From a virus: 50,750 nucleotides of DNA. The DNA is taken from positions 1 through 50,750 of the IMG/VR virus record IMGVR_UViG_3300032050_000202; one strand, 5' to 3'. Shown in pieces: positions 3,230 through 50,750 of the stretch. The notes below the pieces were generated by a model. That model saw only the letters and a program-made list of their open reading frames with translations. It searched no databases and was not told the origin of the DNA. The position numbers were made by a program, and so were the translations under genes. Positions within the stretch are counted from its first letter, which is position 1. Each line of letters opens with the position of its first letter.

Positions 3230-4729
3230 TTAAGCGGCTACCTCCATGAGGATGATCGTTGAGGATGCACGGGAGATGGTGGCACCGTCCGTGTCGGTGC
3301 CGGAACGGTTGAGGTAGACGGCCCCGGTTGAGTGACTGGCAAGTTCGATCTCGTAGGTTAGTGCCGACGTTGACGCCGGACTGTCCACATAGTTGATCGT
3401 AATGGCGTTCATGGCCCCCGCAACACCGGGGTTGCCCATGGCCGTGACCCTTGTTCGACTTCCTGCCGCATCGCCCTGAATAAGCACAGATCCAGACTTC
3501 ACCAACCGCAGGTTCGCGTAGTTGCTTGTTGCCCCGCCAATGGACAGGAAAGCCATCACCAACACCCTTGAGGTGTTTGCTGATGGCGTGATGCTGGCGG
3601 TGAACACGCTCGAAAAGCTGGTGCCGGTAACGCTGGCCGTGTCCGTCTTGGTCGCCTGGACAACCTGAAGAATTTTGCCTCCACCGCTCGCCGTGGCGGA
3701 CAGCGTGGTGCCGCTCATGGACAGACCCGAGCCAAGGCTGATCTCCTCAAAGTCGCCAGCGCCCGACGCGCTCCCACGGCCAAGCAACCTTGAGGCTGCG
3801 GAAGCCTGCGCGAGATTCGACAGAGGCAGGTCGCCAGTCACCCCCGTGCTCAACGGCAGCCCCGTGCAGCTCGTCAGCGTGCCGCTGGAAGGCGTGCCGA
3901 GCGGGCCACCGGAGATGAGCACAGGATAGGACGCCCAGGAGCCTGAGTGGAAGCTGCGCCGAACAAGGACTCCTGGCGTGGAGTATCCAACGCTGTTGAT
4001 CGTGGTCGTGCCGTTGCGGACGAACACAGAGTAGGCCGCCCCCTCGGACGGCGTTGGATCAGTCACCGTGCAGCTTGCCGTGGTGATGTAAAACCCGTTG
4101 TTCTCCGCCGTGAAGTTTGACGATTTAATCTCGGCAATGCCTTGGTAGTCGGTGTTGGCCGTCGCGGTAGAGAACCCGCCGCTGCCGTTGCCCTTCAAGA
4201 TGCTGCTGCCTGAAGTGGCTGGGGCGTAGTCCGTGCCAGATGATGCAGAGGAAAACCCTCCTGACCCGTTGCCCTTCAACAGCGCCGTGCCGCTGGTCGC
4301 CGGGGCGTAGTCGGTGCCTGCGGCTGCGCTGGAGAACCCGCCAGCCCCGTTGCCTTTGAGGATGGCCGAACCCGACGTTGCCGGGGCGTAGTCGGTGCCC
4401 GACGCGGCACTTGAGAATCCCCCGGCACCGTTGCCTTTGAGGATGGCTGAACCGCTGGTTGCAGGGGCGTAGTCGGTGCCCGACGCGGCATTGGAGAAGC
4501 CCCCCGTGCCGCTCCCCTTCAAGATGGCCGTCCCCGATGTCGCAGGAGCGTAGTCCGTGCCGGACGAGGCGTTGGCAAACCCGCCGCTGCCGTCCCCCTT
4601 GAGGATGCTGGTTCCAGAAGGGGCTGTCTGGGTGGCGACGGTACCAAGGTCCATGGCCGTCCTCATGCCCGCCTTGTTGGCGGCCTGCATGAAGGCATCG
4701 ACGTCTGTGCTGGTTGTAAGGTCGGGCAT
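3230..4729 (-). CDS. Repeat-containing tail fibre or spike protein
   Basis: A 499-residue protein. After an N-terminal ~36-residue segment that may attach it to the particle, residues ~37-196 consist of six 27-residue repeats of the form ATSGxAILKGNGxGGFSxAxSGTDYAP, a pattern typical of fibre shafts. Residues ~200-350 hold a Gly/Ser/Thr-rich connector with GTPSSGTLTSCTGLPLSTGVTG, also common in phage fibres. The C-terminal ~150 residues (KILQVVQATKTDTASVTG onward) form a beta-rich tip with few charged residues, the likely receptor-binding part. Gene position after the FN3 protein and before other small fibre genes fits host attachment. Confidence 0.85.
   Translation of the reverse strand: MPDLTTSTDVDAFMQAANKAGMRTAMDLGTVATQTAPSGTSILKGDGSGGFANASSGTDYAPATSGTAILKGSGTGGFSNAASGTDYAPATSGSAILKGNGAGGFSSAASGTDYAPATSGSAILKGNGAGGFSSAAAGTDYAPATSGTALLKGNGSGGFSSASSGTDYAPATSGSSILKGNGSGGFSTATANTDYQGIAEIKSSNFTAENNGFYITTASCTVTDPTPSEGAAYSVFVRNGTTTINSVGYSTPGVLVRRSFHSGSWASYPVLISGGPLGTPSSGTLTSCTGLPLSTGVTGDLPLSNLAQASAASRLLGRGSASGAGDFEEISLGSGLSMSGTTLSATASGGGKILQVVQATKTDTASVTGTSFSSVFTASITPSANTSRVLVMAFLSIGGATSNYANLRLVKSGSVLIQGDAAGSRTRVTAMGNPGVAGAMNAITINYVDSPASTSALTYEIELASHSTGAVYLNRSGTDTDGATISRASSTIILMEVAA
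4141..4621 (-). repeat. Six tandem ~81-bp coding repeats in the fibre gene
   Basis: Six consecutive units of about 81 bp encode the 27-residue shaft repeat. Units differ by silent and Ala/Ser/Thr/Gly substitutions, and units three and four are nearly identical in protein, which suggests recent unit duplication. Recombination between units could change shaft length. Confidence 0.85.
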
Positions 4730-4735
4730 GGCTTC

Positions 4736-5464
4736 TTAGGGTCTCAAGTATATGCTGGTTCCGTCAGGACGCAAATAGGTGGTGGTTCCGCCGGGGCGTA
4801 AGTAAGTCGGAGGAGCGGCGGGCGTCGTGACCACAACTGTCAGGATGTTGCTGGTCAGCCCTTGAAAGGCTCCGGCAAATGGGGTGACGCGATACTTGTA
4901 GGTGTCAGCGGCTGTTTCCGTCACTCCAAGTTCGAGAAGCACCACGGTGTCCAGAAGAGACCAGGATGAACCACCGTCGTCCGAACGCTCCACCTCGTAG
5001 CTGTCCGCCCCCGGAACACTTGTCCACTCCAGCGTGAACTCTACGTTGGTGTCTGCGGTTCCTGGCCCCGTGAGAACCGGGGCTTCAGACTCCCCCGGCA
5101 AAATAACACTGGCTGTATTGCTACTCGGCCCCTCCCCGGCATCGTTGAATGGAACAATTATGTAGTAATACGTCTCCCCCGAGGCGGCGAAAACATTGTC
5201 CGAGGCGGATAAGGTGTTCGGTCCTGTTGAGAAAACAGGGCTGTCAATTCCCGGAACAGGTGGGGTATTTGTGCCTCGATAGACATTGTAACCAAACCCT
5301 GCTGACCCAGTTTTATTACTGGCCGTCCAGTCGAGCAACGCAACTGTGCTGCCGAGAACCGCCTCAACCGTCAGCACAGGAGCCACTGTTGGCGGCGTCA
5401 ATGTCCCGGCTCCCTGGTAGGGAGCGATCTGGATGGCTCGGTAGATGTAGCCAAGGAGATTCAT
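4736..5464 (-). CDS. Fibronectin type III-domain virion protein with YLRP tail repeats
   Basis: A 242-residue protein with two FN3-like domains. The first is at about residues 25-120 (VLTVEAVLGSTVALLDWTAS, then FGYNVYRGT and ETYYYIIVPFNDAGEGPSS). The second is at about 125-215 (FTLEWTSVPGADSYEVERS, then DTYKYRVTPFAG). FN3 domains in phage tail or fibre proteins are thought to bind cell-surface carbohydrate weakly. The C-terminus carries three YLRP units separated by GGTTT and DGTSI, an unusual short repeat that could dock the next fibre. The stop of the upstream gene overlaps its start (TGATG). Confidence 0.85.
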   Translation of the reverse strand: MNLLGYIYRAIQIAPYQGAGTLTPPTVAPVLTVEAVLGSTVALLDWTASNKTGSAGFGYNVYRGTNTPPVPGIDSPVFSTGPNTLSASDNVFAASGETYYYIIVPFNDAGEGPSSNTASVILPGESEAPVLTGPGTADTNVEFTLEWTSVPGADSYEVERSDDGGSSWSLLDTVVLLELGVTETAADTYKYRVTPFAGAFQGLTSNILTVVVTTPAAPPTYLRPGGTTTYLRPDGTSIYLRP

Positions 5465-16393: not shown

Positions 16394-17440
16394 TTAAACG
16401 TCTGCGCCCGATGCGTCAGGCAAGGGGGCCATGTCAGGCAAGGCGGAAGGGTGGAACTTGCGGAGGCGACCGAGCAACCACCATTTAAGGGAGGGCTCCA
16501 TCGTCGAAGCCATGATCCAGTCCGCCGCCTCTGTGGCCGTGCCGATTTCCGCGAGAGCCGCGACCGCGCCCTTATCAATCGGAGCACGGAGGAAATACAG
16601 GCAGGCCATTGCCCAAAGCCTCCACTTGTCCGGGTTGAGGGACGCCGCGCCCAGGCGGATTTCAAGTGTGCGATGCTCGCCCAGGCTGCACACGTTGACC
16701 GCCCGGTACCTGTCGGACATGTGCCAATCCGCGCCGATCAACTGGCAATAGCTATTGCCGACGCGAGACGCCGGGACGCACCAGCGCAACACGCGCTCCA
16801 CGCCGGGGACGACCACCGAGTTAATCCTCTTTTTAAGGCTCGCCGGAACAGCGCCCCCAGTGTAGAGGTCCCGAGCATCGAGGTGAACGTGACCTCCAAA
16901 AGATCTAGTCAGACGCGCCCCGAACGAGCGCAGCGCAGCGCAGACGCGGTAAAGCGGGCGCAGGTCATCCCACCTACAAACAACCGGGATTTCCAATCCG
17001 TCATGCTCCGCGTGGACGCCCCCGGCCATGATGGGCCAAGCGTGGTTACGGACCGCTTGCGACGGCTCAAGCTTGCATTCGATCTCAAATGAGACGAGCC
17101 GCCCGGGCTGATCTTTTTTTGACCTCTCCAGCACCTGGAGGGGGCCGTACTTTTTGATCCTGTCGCGCAGGGGGACCAAAAGCGGATCCTGCCGCTCCTT
17201 GATGTACCTCCGCTGCCGTTGCAGCATATTTACGAGGTACGAGCCAGTAGAGCAATGCCCCGAAAAGCTGCAAGTATAGCCCAGGAGGGCAGAGACGTAG
17301 CCACGCGCATAGTCTCGAGGATGCATGCCATGCCGGAGGAGTGAGCGGCCCGCACGGGTGGCCAGAGGAACGCGGGCTATCTTTTCGGCAGCCTCGAGGC
17401 GGGAGGCGGTACTCATGTTTGCTAAGGTGTCAAACTTCAT
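16394..17440 (-). CDS. Amidoligase (glutamine synthetase-like COOH-NH2 ligase fold)
   Basis: A 348-residue protein. After an N-terminal ~115-residue helical basic region, the amidoligase core begins with SFEIEC (117-122; acidic metal/ATP-binding strand with E119 and E121). It continues with FGGHVHLDARD (181-191; the GxHxH motif) and HRTLEIRLGAASLNPDKW (256-273; the conserved xxEIR arginine strand). These match the Amidoligase_2 family, which joins carboxylates to amines using ATP. Family members work with glutamine amidotransferases, as here, and are proposed to make peptide-like tags, wall peptides or small metabolites. The substrate cannot be deduced. A second Met at residue 9 is an alternative start. 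Confidence 0.88.
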   Translation of the reverse strand: MKFDTLANMSTASRLEAAEKIARVPLATRAGRSLLRHGMHPRDYARGYVSALLGYTCSFSGHCSTGSYLVNMLQRQRRYIKERQDPLLVPLRDRIKKYGPLQVLERSKKDQPGRLVSFEIECKLEPSQAVRNHAWPIMAGGVHAEHDGLEIPVVCRWDDLRPLYRVCAALRSFGARLTRSFGGHVHLDARDLYTGGAVPASLKKRINSVVVPGVERVLRWCVPASRVGNSYCQLIGADWHMSDRYRAVNVCSLGEHRTLEIRLGAASLNPDKWRLWAMACLYFLRAPIDKGAVAALAEIGTATEAADWIMASTMEPSLKWWLLGRLRKFHPSALPDMAPLPDASGADV

Positions 17441-35845: not shown

Positions 35846-36043
35846 ATGCCCAACCACAAATCCAAATTCACGCTGACAATCGAAGCCCTTCAGGTGGGGG
35901 AATCCACGGAAATCAGCTATGAGATTCCCGTTCCCAACAACGTCCTCCACCCTCGCATCACCCGCCTCCGTCAGTCTCTTGGACGCGGCTTCGAGTGCCT
36001 GCGGCTTTCCCCAACCAAATTCCTTGTGAGGAGGACGGCATGA
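35846..36043 (+). CDS. Small protein preceding DNA polymerase
   Basis: 65 residues, beta-rich (KFTLTIEALQVGESTEISYE), ending in a basic tail. The ATGA-type overlap to polymerase suggests coupled translation. Unknown function. Confidence 0.5.
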   Translation: MPNHKSKFTLTIEALQVGESTEISYEIPVPNNVLHPRITRLRQSLGRGFECLRLSPTKFLVRRTA

Positions 36044-37734
36044 AACCTATCGCAGTTGACTTTGAAACATCCTGGACAAAGGATCGCAGCATCGGGACGC
36101 ACGGGACGTTCAACTACCTGAGCCACCCCGAAACGAAGATCTTTATGGTCGCCTTCTACGGAGATGGCGTTTCCTACGTTGGCGAGCCAGAAGATGCCCC
36201 CTGGGACGAGGTTCGTGGCAACCTTGTCATTGCCCACAACTATACCTTTGAACACGCCGTCTTCCGGGAATGCGAACGCCGAGGAGTCATCAAGGAGCCG
36301 CTCAATGAAACGGGATTCTGCACCGCCGACATGAGTGCTTATCTCCAGGCTCCCAGAAACCTTCTTGGAGCTGCCAGAGAACTCCTTGGAGTTTCTCTCG
36401 ACAAGACCACCCGTGACAAGTTCAAGGGAAAGGACTTCGACACACTGCCCATCGACATTCAGCTGGAGATTTCCAACTACGCTCTGATGGACGCCAAAGC
36501 CTGCTTTCATCTCTACAAGCGTTACCACCACCTCTGGCCTGAACATGAGCAGAAGCTGGCCGATCACACACGCATCATGGGGAGGCGTGGAATCAATCTG
36601 GACATCGAGCGTCTGGAACAGGGAATCCGTCACTACAAGGAAGTTCTCTGGGGACTGGAGAAGCTCATCCCTTGGTCGGGAGAAGAGAAGCTGCTTTCTC
36701 CGATTGCCCTCAAGAACGCCTGTCGCAAAGCAGGCATCCCAGCTCCTGAATCCACAGCCAAGAATGACGAGTCCTTTCAGGTCTGGGCTGACGAGTATTC
36801 CAGCAAGGTTCCGTTTGTTGCCGCAGTCAGCAAGTATCGTTCCGTGAACCGCAGCTTGGAAGTGCTAGAAGCCATGAAGATCCGTCTTGTGGGGGAACGG
36901 ATGCAGTATGGCATGAAATACTGTGGAGCCATCCCCACCTTCCGATGGGCGGGAGACTCGGGACTCAATATGCAAAACCTCCCTCGTAATGAAGTGGAAG
37001 GCGTCAACATCCGTCACATGCTGGTTCCTGCCCCAGGCAAGAAGTTCATCTCTGCTGACATGAGCCAGATCGAACCGCGAGTCAGCCTTTACCTCACTGG
37101 GGACAAATATCAGTTGGAGCAGATCCGCAATGGTATGTGTGTCTATGAGGCGCACGGACGACAAACGCTTGGTTACGATCTGCCTATTTCCATGAAGGAG
37201 GCAGCAAAGACGGATGAGAAATACAATGATTTGAGGCAATTCTGCAAAGCAAGATGCCTCTCCGCCGATACCTTGATCTTGACTTCGAGAGGATATCTAC
37301 CCATAGTGCAGGTTCAATCTACGGACAGTCTATGGGATGGCCTTGAGTGGGTTTCCCATGACGGCGTAGTGTGCAACGGAGAACAAGAAACCGAGCTATT
37401 CTATGGAGATCAATACACCCACGACCATGAACTCTTCATCAACAACCAGGAGTGCATATCCGCCAGACGGGCGATCACGGGAGAATCATCACGGGTGGAG
37501 AGGTTTCGAGCTTCAGCATCCTCCTGGAACGATGTTTGGTTTCTGGCAAGTTACCTCCTCCAAAGCTATTCGCAGCGAAAAAGGGGTCTTGAAGATCCAG
37601 TGTCGATGCACTCGCTGCAACGGCCCCGAGGAGGCCGTGGATCTTCGGAATCTGGAAAAGGGTTTTTCCGAAAGCTGTTTTCCGTGTTCCGTTCAACTCC
37701 GAGCAGCAAAGAGAAACTTGAAGAAGTGGGGTAA
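36040..37734 (+). CDS. DNA polymerase A, N-terminal part fused to intein N-half
   Basis: 564 residues from the ATG at 36040. Residues 1-~150 form a DnaQ-like 3'-5' exonuclease (AVDFETSW with D7/E9; AHNYTFEHAVF; YALMDAKACF). The polymerase region follows, with motif A as ISADMSQIEPRVSLY. The natural sequence stops at RQFCKAR (residue 405), which is the first half of motif B. Residue 406 (codon 37255) is the intein Cys1: CLSADTLILT, then TDSLWDGLEWVSHDGV, then the block B motif THDHEL (T55/H58 of the intein). The last ~70 residues overlap the endonuclease ORF in another frame and look like non-homologous tail. The other half of the enzyme is encoded separately downstream. Confidence 0.9.
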   Translation: MKPIAVDFETSWTKDRSIGTHGTFNYLSHPETKIFMVAFYGDGVSYVGEPEDAPWDEVRGNLVIAHNYTFEHAVFRECERRGVIKEPLNETGFCTADMSAYLQAPRNLLGAARELLGVSLDKTTRDKFKGKDFDTLPIDIQLEISNYALMDAKACFHLYKRYHHLWPEHEQKLADHTRIMGRRGINLDIERLEQGIRHYKEVLWGLEKLIPWSGEEKLLSPIALKNACRKAGIPAPESTAKNDESFQVWADEYSSKVPFVAAVSKYRSVNRSLEVLEAMKIRLVGERMQYGMKYCGAIPTFRWAGDSGLNMQNLPRNEVEGVNIRHMLVPAPGKKFISADMSQIEPRVSLYLTGDKYQLEQIRNGMCVYEAHGRQTLGYDLPISMKEAAKTDEKYNDLRQFCKARCLSADTLILTSRGYLPIVQVQSTDSLWDGLEWVSHDGVVCNGEQETELFYGDQYTHDHELFINNQECISARRAITGESSRVERFRASASSWNDVWFLASYLLQSYSQRKRGLEDPVSMHSLQRPRGGRGSSESGKGFFRKLFSVFRSTPSSKEKLEEVG

Positions 37735-38215
37735 GGAGACGTTAACCCCGGAGGAGAAGATTCTCCAGGAGAGATGGAATGCCATATGGCACCGATGTCA
37801 AAACCCAGAAAGCAAGCAATACAAGAACTATGGGGAGCGAGGTATTCGGCTGTCTGAAGAGTTTCAAAATGATGTGGTTTTTGTGAGGTATGTTCAGGAA
37901 CTTCCTGACTACCCGGCCACGTTGACCAAGAAAACAACACTTGATAGAATTGACGTTAACAAGGGATATGAAAGAGGAAACATTCGATTTTCAGGGCAAA
38001 AGGAGCAGATGCGAAACCTTCGCACAACGGAGTATTTGGAGTATCAAGGCAAGAGCTATGATGCTCGCACGTTCTGTGAACTCTTTCTTTCTCGGTATCG
38101 TCCGACGACCGTTGCTCGTCTTGCTGCAAAAGGAGTTGGAGTGGAAGAGATCATGCGTCGGGATAAAGAATCTGTCAGGGTTGGCAGGCGATGGGCAGTC
38201 CCAAAAAGTGTATGA
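37532..38215 (+). CDS. Homing endonuclease nested inside the split intein
   Basis: 227 residues from the ATG at 37532, in a frame different from both polymerase ORFs. The N-terminal zinc-like module has CRCTRC and SCFPC preceded by FGFWQVTSS, typical of phage AP2/HNH-type homing endonucleases. Next come RWNAIWHRCQNPESKQYKNY and GERGIRLSEEF, then LDRIDVNKGYERGNIRF with QKEQMRN, which form the nuclease core of that family. The C-terminus holds a NUMOD-like HTH (DARTFCELFLSRYRPTTVAR, then GVGVEEIM). It would cut an intein-less polymerase gene to spread the insertion. It overlaps the N-half by 203 bp. Confidence 0.85.
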   Translation: MFGFWQVTSSKAIRSEKGVLKIQCRCTRCNGPEEAVDLRNLEKGFSESCFPCSVQLRAAKRNLKKWGKETLTPEEKILQERWNAIWHRCQNPESKQYKNYGERGIRLSEEFQNDVVFVRYVQELPDYPATLTKKTTLDRIDVNKGYERGNIRFSGQKEQMRNLRTTEYLEYQGKSYDARTFCELFLSRYRPTTVARLAAKGVGVEEIMRRDKESVRVGRRWAVPKSV

Positions 38216-38834
38216 CATTCTCAATGCCGGGCCAAGAAATAGGTTTTGCACTCCATGGGCTGTCGCCCATAACTGCTTGGGACTTACCTATGGTCAGTAT
38301 GCTCGGGGTTTCCAGGCTTATGCCAAGACCTTTGGACTCAATTTGACGTTGGAAGAAGCGGACCGACAAGTAAAGCAATTCAAAAAGTCCAACCCCCTAC
38401 TAGCTGCCTTTTGGGAAAGATTGGAGCAGGGAGCCAAGTTCAGCAAGAACGAGACTTATGAGATCGATCTCCCTAGCGGCAGGAGCATGAAGTATTTCGA
38501 CATGCGGGTGACCCGTGGGAAGTATGGAGCCGAGTTCCACGCTCGTCCAGTTCAAGGAGAAGCCATGACCTATTACTCCTTCGGAAAATGGCACAACAAT
38601 GTTTGTCAGGGAACCGCTCGGGACGTGCTTGGAGAAGCCATTCTCAGAATTGAGAACCAGATAGGACTCCCAATCGTTCTCCATGTCCACGATGAAGTTC
38701 TAGTTGAAGTTGACGAAGCTGATGCTAAAGACGCCCAGATTGAGGTGGCTCGGGCAATGGCTACGTCTCCAGACTGGATGCCAGGAATCCCGCTTACCTC
38801 GGACTGCAAAATCTTTGACCGCTACGAAAAATGA
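38181..38834 (+). CDS. Intein C-half fused to DNA polymerase A C-terminal part
   Basis: The start is uncertain. TTG at 38181 is chosen because the homing endonuclease is coding until 38215; in-frame ATGs exist only further inside it (37968, 38058). The intein C-part is QKVYDILNAGPRNRFCTPWA then VAHN; the last Asn codon (38271-38273) is followed by Cys+1 (38274). The C-extein continues CLGLTYGQYARGF, completing motif B (R-x3-K-x7-Y-G when joined to the N-half). It contains motif C LHVHDEVLVE. The C-extein is 186 residues; with the 405-residue N-extein the spliced enzyme is 591 residues, normal for phage Pol A. Confidence 0.88.
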   Translation: MAGDGQSQKVYDILNAGPRNRFCTPWAVAHNCLGLTYGQYARGFQAYAKTFGLNLTLEEADRQVKQFKKSNPLLAAFWERLEQGAKFSKNETYEIDLPSGRSMKYFDMRVTRGKYGAEFHARPVQGEAMTYYSFGKWHNNVCQGTARDVLGEAILRIENQIGLPIVLHVHDEVLVEVDEADAKDAQIEVARAMATSPDWMPGIPLTSDCKIFDRYEK

Positions 38835-46870: not shown

Positions 46871-49800
46871 TTATTTATAACCAAACCTGCGCTTAGCCTC
46901 GCGGGTGGCCTTGGAGCTGATCTCACCAAAAGCCTTGGAAAGATCCTCGTCGTCCATGCGCTCCAGCCTCGACATCTGGCGGATCATTTCCGACTTCACA
47001 ATCCTGCCACGGGCGGCAACGTAGTCCAGCCAGTCCCGGTCAGGCATGATGCCATTCTGGTTCTCAAGGATGGAACGCTGTGGGATACCAGGACCCGTTC
47101 CACGATCAAGGATGAAGTCGTAGATCCGCTTGTCGCTGCCAGTGGGAGCACCGGAAACCATCAAGGGAATCCCGTTATACCAAGCCCTGTCGTTCAGGGT
47201 GCTCCAGGCATCCGTTGGAACGTAGCCCTGGGGGTCGCCAAGGGCGTTCACCGCCCTCTCCGTCAACATGGAGCGGGCAATCGGGAGATTGAGCCAGAAA
47301 GCCCCCGTGCGGCCACGGAACCTGTCAGGACCGACAAGCATGTTCTCCATCGACTTGATGGTTCCAGAGAACGGAATGAACGGGTTGAGCTTGTAGAGGA
47401 GGTTTCCAGCGATGTTGGCTTCCGGGTTGACCTCAAGGAAGGCCCCCACCGTGTTCTTCACCCCGAAGAAAGCAGCCTGCTTGCTCCATCCGTAAGCCAC
47501 GGCGGAGAAGTAGTCGCTGAAGTCGCTCGGCAGATTCTTGTCGCCCAGCTTGCGGTTGAGGCGCATGTCATCCAGGGCACCCACGGCAAGCGCGGCAATC
47601 TTGAAAGGTTCAAGAGGACCACGCGCCCAGTTAAAGGAGATCACCTTGCCATCCTTGGTGACATACTCAAAGGAACCCTGGCGATGCCCCTTCTTGCGCC
47701 AAGCATCCTGTTCGGTCTTGTTGGACGGCCCGGCAAGCGTGACGTTGAACCCCTCGTCATCTTCGTCCCCCTTGAACAGGAGCATGATTCCGATGGCGGC
47801 GGTTCCGACAAAGGCTTCAATGAGACGCTGGCGCATCTGAGCCTGGGTCTGCATGGACTGCTGGTAGAACTGATCCGAGTTCACCTTGATTGACTTCTTG
47901 AGGAAGTAGCGAACGAATCCGTAGGGGGAGAGCCAGAGAGCGCGGTTGAAGAGGTTCACCGGAATGCCAAAGAAACCGAAGAGCATGGTTCCGAGAATCG
48001 GATTCTTGGTCTTCACAGACTGACCCACATCTCGGACAAGCTGGGCAAAGGTGTTCACCACGTCCAGCATCGGAGACTTCTCCCCGCGATGAGTCCCCAT
48101 CTCGTAGTCGGATTCCTTGTCCACATAGTTGAGAACCGCCTCCGCCTGCGCAGGACTGATCTGCTTCTGGAGAGTGAGGTAGATCCCGCGATTGATCCGG
48201 TCACTTGTGCGGAGACGTGCATTGTTCGTTGCCTGACGGAGGGCGAAGGTCAGCTGGCGGCGAAGAGTTTCTGGTTTCTCGAACGCCGTGACGACTCGGC
48301 GCATGTCACCTTTGAAGTCTTCAATGAAGACGCGATTCTCATCCGACAGCCCTTCAGGGATTTCAATATCCGAGACAAGCTGGAGGAGCTGATCTTTTGT
48401 GGCGTTACCAGTCTTGAGCAATTCGTCAGCTTTCTGGGCGAAAGCAGAGATCACCTGATTGTTGAAGTCGAGGAACGCCTGTTCCTGCGTCTGGATGCTG
48501 TACACCATCGGGACAAACTCCTTGGCGGTGAGATTGCCCGCTCCGATCAAGGCATTCATGGACTGCACCTTCAGGAAGTAGTTCTGAAGAACGGAAGACC
48601 AAACGTGGTCCGCCGTCATGAGAGTTCTGGAAATGATCCCCGTGTAGGCGGCGGCGATGGTGTAGCGGGCTTTGAGCTTGTCCATCAAAGACGCCTTGCT
48701 GCCCCTGGCGACCACACGACGAGCCGCGATGAGTTCCCCCTGGAGCGTGGTGACTTCCTGGATGACGTTGTTCATCGCCACGTTGCTGGCACCGCTGAGA
48801 AGACCAAACTCCGTCTCCCTGGCGATTTTCTTGAGGGATTCGACGGCGATCTTGCCGATGTTCAAGGCTTCATCAATCCTGCCACGGACAAGAGCCCGTC
48901 CAAGATCAAACATGACACGGTTGAGGAAAGCCCCGGCAGGGGAGATGACGTTGACGCCCAGGGTACCCAGGCCGCCAAGAGCGCTGTTGATGTAGGAGAT
49001 TCCAGCCACTTCCACAAGGCTCTTCGGGGCGCGACGGCGGCTGAGAAGCTCGTAGAGTTCCTTGAGGCCGAGGCTCACGTCATGCTGGCGACCATCCTCA
49101 ATGGCTCGGGTGATCTTCAAGTCAAGTTCCCCGAGGCTCTTGTAGTCCTCTGGACGGAAGCCCGTGTAACCAAGCTCCTTGGCAAGGGCCTGCTGGGGGT
49201 CGATCTCAAAATCACCAAGACCCTTGCGGATCAGGCTCAAGTCCTTGTCGAGCTGCTGCTTGGCCTTGCCTGTGAGAAGGAAGGGGTTGGAAACAACGCC
49301 GAAGGTGGAGGGAATGTTTTCCTGGGCGGCACGCTTGCGGAGTTCCGCCACATGCTTGTCCAAGGCTTCCGTCTTGGCCTTCTTGATGAAGTCCTCGAAA
49401 GCCGCCTGAATCCAAGACTTGGAACTGGCGATCATCGCATCGGAGTAGCCGTTGTGACGAAGGAAGTTCTCGATGGCGAGATTTCGTGCAACAGGATCAT
49501 TGGCGAGGGCAGGACGGGAAAGGATGTGCTTCACCAGCTTTTGCAGCATGGTCGGCTGCTTGCCCTCGGCGGGGAGCATGTCTGCCTCGACGCGAGCCAG
49601 ATTGTAAAGACGAAGTGCCTGTTCTTGGGTGGCCCCGAAACGAGCAGCTTCCGCCACAAACAAATCCTGTGGAAGAGGAACACGAACCTGGGCACGAACA
49701 AGAGACCTCAGGGACTCCTGCGCCGTGGTGCGCTTTTTGGGCGGGGAGGCAAGCTGCCTCTCATACCGCTTGATGAAGTTCGTCACGAAGGCGTCGGCAC

Positions 49801-50750
49801 GCTCTGCGGTCATCCTGGCGGAGGCCCCTTCCGCAAGACCGAAGATGGTGTCGATCTCCTCTTGGCTGAACCTGCGAAGAGCCTCCGATGCTTCCATCTG
49901 GGAGAGACCGCTGTTGACCAGCAGTTTTTTCATGGAAATGATGCGCCACACCGGATCAGATGCGTCGGCATTCTTCTCCTTCAGAAGCTCCTTTGCCAGA
50001 GTTTCGTTGGAGCCGTTGAGCAACGCCTCCCTGATTCGGCTGAACTTGCGATCCAGCTGGGCTTTCCGACGCTCCGTGTGGTTCTTGTAAGCGGCTTCCG
50101 CCAGTTTCTTGGCGGTGCCCTCCTCGATTCCTCCAATCTTGTCGATCTCCTCGGTGAGCTTCTGGATGAAGGAGTCGTAAGGGAGACGATCCTTGTTGAC
50201 CAGGAACTTCTTCACCAGCTTGCGAAGCTGTTCGGCTTTCTGAGGGGTCTTGTTGATGCTTGGAGCCTTTTCCTTGAGGAGGCTGGCGGCAATGCGTTCC
50301 GCATCCTTCTGCTGGTAACGGGTGAACACCGTGTAGGACCGGGAGAGGAGTTCGCTGAGAACCTTCTTGTCAATTTCAAGGCTTCCCAGCTCCTTCGTGG
50401 CCTCCTCCTTGAACTTGGCGAAGTCCCAGCCATCGGGGTTGGCAATCGCGGCATCGACAATCTTCTTGATTTTCTGATAGATTGTCTCTCCTGGTTTTTT
50501 GTTCTTGTACTTCCTGGCAAGGAACGCCTTGAGGTTCTCAATGACCTTCTTCGCCGCCTCCGTGGCGTCGTTGGCGTCTTCGGCATCCTCCACGTCGGCA
50601 TCCTCTTCCCCGGAGGAGTCATCCTCGGGAACCCCAGGCTCGGCGTCACTCTGTTCGTCCTCGGACTGGAACCACTTGTTGAGGTTCTCGTTGAGCCGCT
50701 GTTTCACTCTGGCCATCTTTTCGCGGATGGCCTCAGGGGTCGAAGGGATA
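46871..50750 (-). CDS. Large polyvalent virion protein, truncated by the window edge
   Basis: The frame is open to the window edge. 1,281 residues follow an internal Met at 50716 and twelve further in-frame codons lie upstream (IPSTPEAIREK), so the gene almost surely begins outside. The first ~600 visible residues are highly charged helix (EEDADVEDAEDANDATEAAK, then Lys/Glu-rich stretches). Around residues 900-1100 lie hydrophobic segments (GFFGIPVNLFNRALW, AFVGTAAIGIMLLF) suitable for membrane crossing. Large proteins of this type in short-tailed phages are ejected with the DNA and often carry an N-terminal enzyme domain. That domain is not visible here. Confidence 0.75.
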   Translation of the reverse strand, partial: IPSTPEAIREKMARVKQRLNENLNKWFQSEDEQSDAEPGVPEDDSSGEEDADVEDAEDANDATEAAKKVIENLKAFLARKYKNKKPGETIYQKIKKIVDAAIANPDGWDFAKFKEEATKELGSLEIDKKVLSELLSRSYTVFTRYQQKDAERIAASLLKEKAPSINKTPQKAEQLRKLVKKFLVNKDRLPYDSFIQKLTEEIDKIGGIEEGTAKKLAEAAYKNHTERRKAQLDRKFSRIREALLNGSNETLAKELLKEKNADASDPVWRIISMKKLLVNSGLSQMEASEALRRFSQEEIDTIFGLAEGASARMTAERADAFVTNFIKRYERQLASPPKKRTTAQESLRSLVRAQVRVPLPQDLFVAEAARFGATQEQALRLYNLARVEADMLPAEGKQPTMLQKLVKHILSRPALANDPVARNLAIENFLRHNGYSDAMIASSKSWIQAAFEDFIKKAKTEALDKHVAELRKRAAQENIPSTFGVVSNPFLLTGKAKQQLDKDLSLIRKGLGDFEIDPQQALAKELGYTGFRPEDYKSLGELDLKITRAIEDGRQHDVSLGLKELYELLSRRRAPKSLVEVAGISYINSALGGLGTLGVNVISPAGAFLNRVMFDLGRALVRGRIDEALNIGKIAVESLKKIARETEFGLLSGASNVAMNNVIQEVTTLQGELIAARRVVARGSKASLMDKLKARYTIAAAYTGIISRTLMTADHVWSSVLQNYFLKVQSMNALIGAGNLTAKEFVPMVYSIQTQEQAFLDFNNQVISAFAQKADELLKTGNATKDQLLQLVSDIEIPEGLSDENRVFIEDFKGDMRRVVTAFEKPETLRRQLTFALRQATNNARLRTSDRINRGIYLTLQKQISPAQAEAVLNYVDKESDYEMGTHRGEKSPMLDVVNTFAQLVRDVGQSVKTKNPILGTMLFGFFGIPVNLFNRALWLSPYGFVRYFLKKSIKVNSDQFYQQSMQTQAQMRQRLIEAFVGTAAIGIMLLFKGDEDDEGFNVTLAGPSNKTEQDAWRKKGHRQGSFEYVTKDGKVISFNWARGPLEPFKIAALAVGALDDMRLNRKLGDKNLPSDFSDYFSAVAYGWSKQAAFFGVKNTVGAFLEVNPEANIAGNLLYKLNPFIPFSGTIKSMENMLVGPDRFRGRTGAFWLNLPIARSMLTERAVNALGDPQGYVPTDAWSTLNDRAWYNGIPLMVSGAPTGSDKRIYDFILDRGTGPGIPQRSILENQNGIMPDRDWLDYVAARGRIVKSEMIRQMSRLERMDDEDLSKAFGEISSKATREAKRRFGYK

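Follow-up and report, generated by a model that had tools for sequence, protein, structure and literature searches.

The DNA polymerase A (PolA) gene of the virus record IMGVR_UViG_3300032050_000202 in IMG/VR (50,750 bp, analysed over its whole length and referred to below as the window) is encoded by two open reading frames (ORFs) in different frames, and the break is formed by the two halves of an intein inserted at polymerase motif B. The locus very probably represents a fractured polA with a mobile split intein that needs trans-splicing, derived from an intein with a homing endonuclease (HEN) hidden in an overlapping frame. With less assurance, it also appears probable that fractured-gene split inteins can arise from an undescribed, widespread class of such hidden-HEN phage inteins, with at least two lineages represented here.

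Three frames of the plus strand are used at polA, with the PolA N-half and the N-terminal intein half (IntN) in frame 1, the HEN in frame 2, and the C-terminal intein half (IntC) with the PolA C-half in frame 0. The N-extein of 405 amino acids (aa) at 36040..37254 (PF00476, phrog_17) is preceded by a Shine-Dalgarno sequence, GAGGAGGA, at 36028..36035, 4 nucleotides (nt) before ATG 36040 and with a duplex energy of -11.7 kcal/mol. It carries the exonuclease motifs (VDFET), motif A (ISADMSQIEPR) and the first half of motif B (RQFCKAR), and its frame continues into an IntN of 159 aa plus stop at 37255..37734 (stop codon 37732-37734). The HNH-type HEN ORF occupies 37403..38215 in a frame open from 37370 to 38215, and may start at the first ATG (37403) or at a conserved ATG ('MFG') at 37532. 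Frames 1 and 2 are both open at 37403..37734, and the overlap between the N-half ORF and the HEN amounts to 203-332 nt depending on the choice of HEN start. Frames 2 and 0 are both open at 37926..38215. The C-half frame, open from 37926 to 38834, contains the 31-aa IntC core, LAGDGQSQKVYDILNAGPRNRFCTPWAVAHN, at 38181..38273, followed by the C-extein of 186 aa plus stop at 38274..38834, which begins with Cys+1 and supplies the remainder of motif B (CLGLTYG) and motif C (HVHDE). The intein DNA measures 1019 nt, which is not a multiple of three. In the centre of the HEN (37732-37925), stops occur in both other frames and the frame of neither half is open across it; therefore, no single shift joins the polymerase halves. 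No PF00476 polymerase was found in the record besides these two halves.

When joined, the exteins yield a PolA of 591 aa (405+186) with the exonuclease, A, B and C motifs, in which RQFCKAR and CLGLTYG meet at the splice junction to rebuild motif B as RQFCKARCLGLTYG. The intein residues comprise Cys1 at 37255, block B 'YTHDHE', block F 'VYDILNAGPRNRF', the ending 'AHN' and Cys+1 at 38274. An earlier note, made from the letters of this DNA, had proposed the three-frame arrangement, the full set of splicing residues and the rebuilt 591-aa polymerase, and these were confirmed with all positions; its interpretation as a fractured gene with a split intein remains the best supported, splicing itself being predicted from sequence. 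Three features of a fractured gene with a split intein are present, namely two host-gene ORFs, matching intein halves with splicing residues, and a HEN with its own free-standing ORF, although this HEN overlaps the halves instead of sitting between them. With the hidden-endonuclease inteins of the SO-1 and MR14 type, the window shares the homologous out-of-frame HNH, but not the continuous open intein and polymerase frame.

The same arrangement was found in diverged phages. A search with the joined exteins returned L016, L019 and L017/L018, the last being two contigs that are identical over the compared stretch and both carry the insert, and a search with the HEN returned L147, a 58 kb contig. 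L017 and L147 share the window layout, with the HEN at N+1 and the C-half at N+2, at N-extein identities to the window of 59% and 66%, respectively. All three phages have exactly 277 nt between Cys1 and the HEN 'MFG', and their inserts (1019, 1007 and 1004 nt) are all 2 mod 3; the IntN length varies between 137 and 161 aa, and the frame overlaps also differ in length. In the two exteins, IntN and the HEN, identity was 53-83% at the first two codon positions as against 31-44% at position 3, and nonsynonymous divergence (dN) was below synonymous divergence (dS) wherever dS was computable. These substitution patterns show that purifying selection acts on all four segments, and the three-frame layout is old and maintained. 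When synonymous HEN codons were shuffled to test the openness of the overlaps, the N frame was found to stay open past 'MFG' for longer than expected, over 200, 206 and 134 nt in the three phages (p = 0.0002, 0.011 and 0.077); the identities by codon position pointed only weakly to double constraint in the overlaps. The motif B site is without an intein in L016 and L019, whose PolAs are 54% identical and whose motif B reads KAR, then V or T, then LGLGFG. A nucleotide search of cultured phages gave no match, a DNA pattern for the IntC end was refound only in the L017 contigs, and single-protein scans with IntN and HEN returned nothing close; two candidates from these scans were rejected, L014 as an unrelated, in-frame LAGLIDADG intein and L015 as a free-standing HNH gene.

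Together with those of cultured phages, the loci from profile scans of bacterial genomes (8 loci) and viral contigs made up 85 unique intein loci; in the viral-contig scan with the IntN profile, 80 loci were kept of 323 confirmed. An HNH HEN was present in 77 of the 85 loci and in none of these 77 did it lie in the intein frame. In 73 it was hidden, at +2 in 47 cases and at +1 in 26, and the intein frame ran without a stop over the full length of the HEN. When tested by synonymous shuffling, this openness was significant (p < 0.01) for 60 of these 73 loci, with a mean of 5.5 stops expected and 0 seen. The four remaining loci (the window, L017, L147 and L142) were fractured. The hidden-HEN inteins (among L001-L013 and L067-L155) were located mostly in phage PolA, with L097 and L104 in apparent helicases. 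A continuous polymerase ORF with a nested out-of-frame HNH was found in MR14, SO-1, EP23, VT223, EBPR siphovirus 2 and Javan255, while APSE-1 and Caulobacter phage RW carry homologous inteins at another polymerase site with the same nested HNH plan. The N-half/HEN overlap of about 200 bp, which the earlier note had pointed out for this copy, is real at 203-332 nt and not peculiar to it, being probably inherited from a family whose HEN is normally concealed in an overlapping frame. Nested ORFs of this kind are annotated in single GenBank records (SO-1 gp39 and APSE-1 P46). In a partial literature collection, no paper describing inteins with an endonuclease hidden in an overlapping frame was found, and novelty is unproven. 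The GenBank notes of two records appear misleading: in SO-1 the insert is called a type I self-splicing intron, and in VT223 the whole polymerase coding sequence is called 'endonuclease' (L004, L006).

Among 58 HENs placed in a tree, those hidden at +2 formed one side of a branch (97%), and the offset tracks the tree. The clade of the window, L017 and L147 (100%) lay inside the '+1 hidden' half, and L142 was placed elsewhere in that half. Because of this nested position and the numbers of hidden and fractured loci, we infer that the ancestor was hidden and not fractured. In L142 (4001-4963), polA is fractured at the motif C site, with the N-half stop at 4253 and an HNH HEN at +1, and the IntC ORF begins ATG AAA GTT TAC GAT, its ATG overlapping the HEN stop as ATGA. 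Since the window/L017/L147 clade and L142 are apart on the HEN tree, fracturing by HNH-bearing inteins occurred at least two times. L124 (4001-5091) has a fractured polA broken after 'AKPATLG'; its nuclease is of the GIY-YIG type (Pfam E 1.7e-10), and the ATG of its IntC ORF lies within ATGACTAA at the endonuclease stop. L124 may represent a third fracturing lineage.

In the predicted structure of L103, a continuous hidden-HEN relative, residues 1-98 and 259-289 were of high confidence, whereas the stretch read through the endonuclease was predicted to be disordered, with a predicted local distance difference test score (pLDDT) of about 30. The best PDB match to the ordered core was the gp41-1 intein (Foldseek probability 1.00, E 4e-3), and the remaining close PDB matches were nearly all inteins or Hint-type domains. 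The window retains the parts that are ordered in L103, i.e. about 98 IntN residues and the 31-aa IntC core, and the fold of its relatives suggests that the ordered part of IntN corresponds approximately to residues 1-98. Among PDB sequences, the IntN profile matched NEQ068 alone (E 8e-4). The window HEN matched phrog_3377 'HNH endonuclease' (E 4.6e-26), and its predicted structure was confident (pLDDT 89).

Several explanations besides a fractured gene were weighed. Sequencing or assembly indels could have disrupted an ordinary in-frame intein whose endonuclease shared its frame, given that two net 1-nt shifts would unite the three frames and that homopolymers of five occur at 37578, 37663, 37878 and 38203. 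Single-base errors, named in the earlier note as what would overturn its interpretation, are however excluded because two diverged phages (L017 and L147) share the three-frame layout, with common frame order and spacing, and an in-frame endonuclease was seen in 0 of the 77 HNH-bearing related inteins; we consider this origin vanishingly improbable. The exact removal of an RNA intron (group I or II) with its HNH gene from the mRNA would restore polA as well, and the annotators of SO-1 took a related insert for a type I self-splicing intron. Nevertheless, no Rfam group I or II intron matched at gathering or relaxed thresholds, the intein blocks and all splicing residues are conserved at the protein level, and the whole insert of the relatives is open in the polymerase frame, which leaves an intron extremely unlikely.

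Two programmed +1 ribosomal frameshifts could instead produce a single PolA-IntN-HEN-IntC-PolA polyprotein that splices in cis, as both shifts are +1 and both overlaps are long enough for a slip site. However, inspection of the junctions revealed no conserved slippery sequence, the frame overlaps are of different length in the three phages, and L124 and L142 instead restart cleanly, at ATGACTAA and ATGA junctions, so that we hold this mechanism to be very unlikely. A dead, decaying polymerase gene in a phage relying on the host polymerase would be in keeping with a polA broken in frame and a record without another polymerase A. The persistence of the catalytic motifs and all splicing residues, dN below dS in both exteins and the HEN wherever computable, and an old break common to several phages make such decay very doubtful.

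Some observations weigh against a fractured gene with a working split intein and endonuclease. The HEN matched no Pfam family, and a fold search of its model against the PDB gave no significant match. Candidate starts for the C-half are ATG 37968, ATG 38058/38061, TTG 38181 and GTG 38208, and none of them is a start codon with a Shine-Dalgarno sequence kept in all three phages. The positions of ATG 37968 and ATG 38061 are kept in L017 and L147, which may be due to the HEN codons, and TTG 38181 has an ATG counterpart in L017, though none in L147. Upstream of the HEN stop, the openness of the C frame exceeded chance only weakly (p = 0.09, 0.06 and 0.10). Furthermore, the L147 intein (4677-4745) ends in TPSAVVSN before the Cys; its penultimate residue is Ser, whereas the window and L017 have the usual His, and therefore its splicing is possibly weaker. 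The lack of a good Shine-Dalgarno sequence is not peculiar to the C-half: several of the other ORF starts tested in the window (33748, 34980, 38831, 39056 and 44529) have no recognisable one, whereas that of PolA is strong; initiation without it may be frequent in the host.

Under the fractured-gene reading, in a tailed phage, the first ORF would make the PolA N-half fused to IntN and the second ORF IntC fused to the PolA C-half, and the two products would associate through the split intein. The intein would then be excised using Cys1, the block B Thr and His, the C-terminal His-Asn and Cys+1, and the exteins would be ligated across motif B into an active 591-aa polymerase. The empty motif B site of intein-free relatives is the most likely target of the HNH-type HEN, and repair after the cut would copy the whole insert. 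The ancestor was presumably a continuous cis-splicing intein whose HEN was hidden at +1 in an overlapping frame. The ability of the halves to splice in trans is proposed to have made loss of the shared frame tolerable, and this loss would have left a two-gene split intein and a HEN that retains its own ORF.

The window locus resembles the fractured genes with split inteins of the gp41-1, NrdJ-1 and IMPDH-1 type, which were reportedly described by Dassa et al. in 2009, in having two ORFs each with an intein half, an endonuclease gene between them and an origin in environmental phages, and the related intein core of L103 folds most like gp41-1. It differs in that the HEN overlaps both half-genes in the third frame and in the kinship of its intein to inteins with hidden endonucleases. 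NEQ068, the split DNA polymerase intein of Nanoarchaeum equitans, likewise interrupts a DNA polymerase, and its host protein is an archaeal family B polymerase; to our knowledge, there is no endonuclease between its halves. The inteins of Sodalis phage SO-1, Shigella phage EP23 and Pseudomonas phage MR14 sit at motif B, and SO-1 (gp38/gp39), APSE-1 (P45/P46), MR14 and EP23 have homologous PolA inteins with a homologous other-frame HNH ORF; their polymerase ORF is continuous, with cis-splicing expected, whereas that of the window is broken into two genes. The endonucleases of Dassa's fractured genes are given as EDxHD/Vsr family in a citing paper (PMC12350094); on that account, the HNH of the window and the GIY-YIG of L124 are different. 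The ShiLan domain, an out-of-frame HNH hidden in a phage methylase insertion, lacks a splicing domain and is expressly distinguished from inteins (Arsenault et al. 2025, PMC11855218). Both systems have an alternate-frame HNH in a mobile insertion open in the frame of the host gene, but here a true intein surrounds the HEN, read through in the relatives and split in the window copy.

If correct, this interpretation would provide a concrete route for the origin of natural split inteins, from a hidden-endonuclease intein to a two-gene fractured polymerase, with an essential replication enzyme that stays in pieces over a large divergence. As the HEN never lies in the intein frame in the surveyed family, annotation of the host frame only is suggested to miss it. 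The polymerase-intein halves are also new candidates for natural split-intein tools.

Elsewhere in the window, a putative amidoligase (PF12224, E 8e-9) is encoded at 16394-17440 on the minus strand, placing this domain in a phage record. A 1281-aa ORF without a Pfam or PHROG match lies at 46871-50716 (minus strand), and the opposite strand contains a long open frame of at least 887 aa at 48089-50749 (plus strand).
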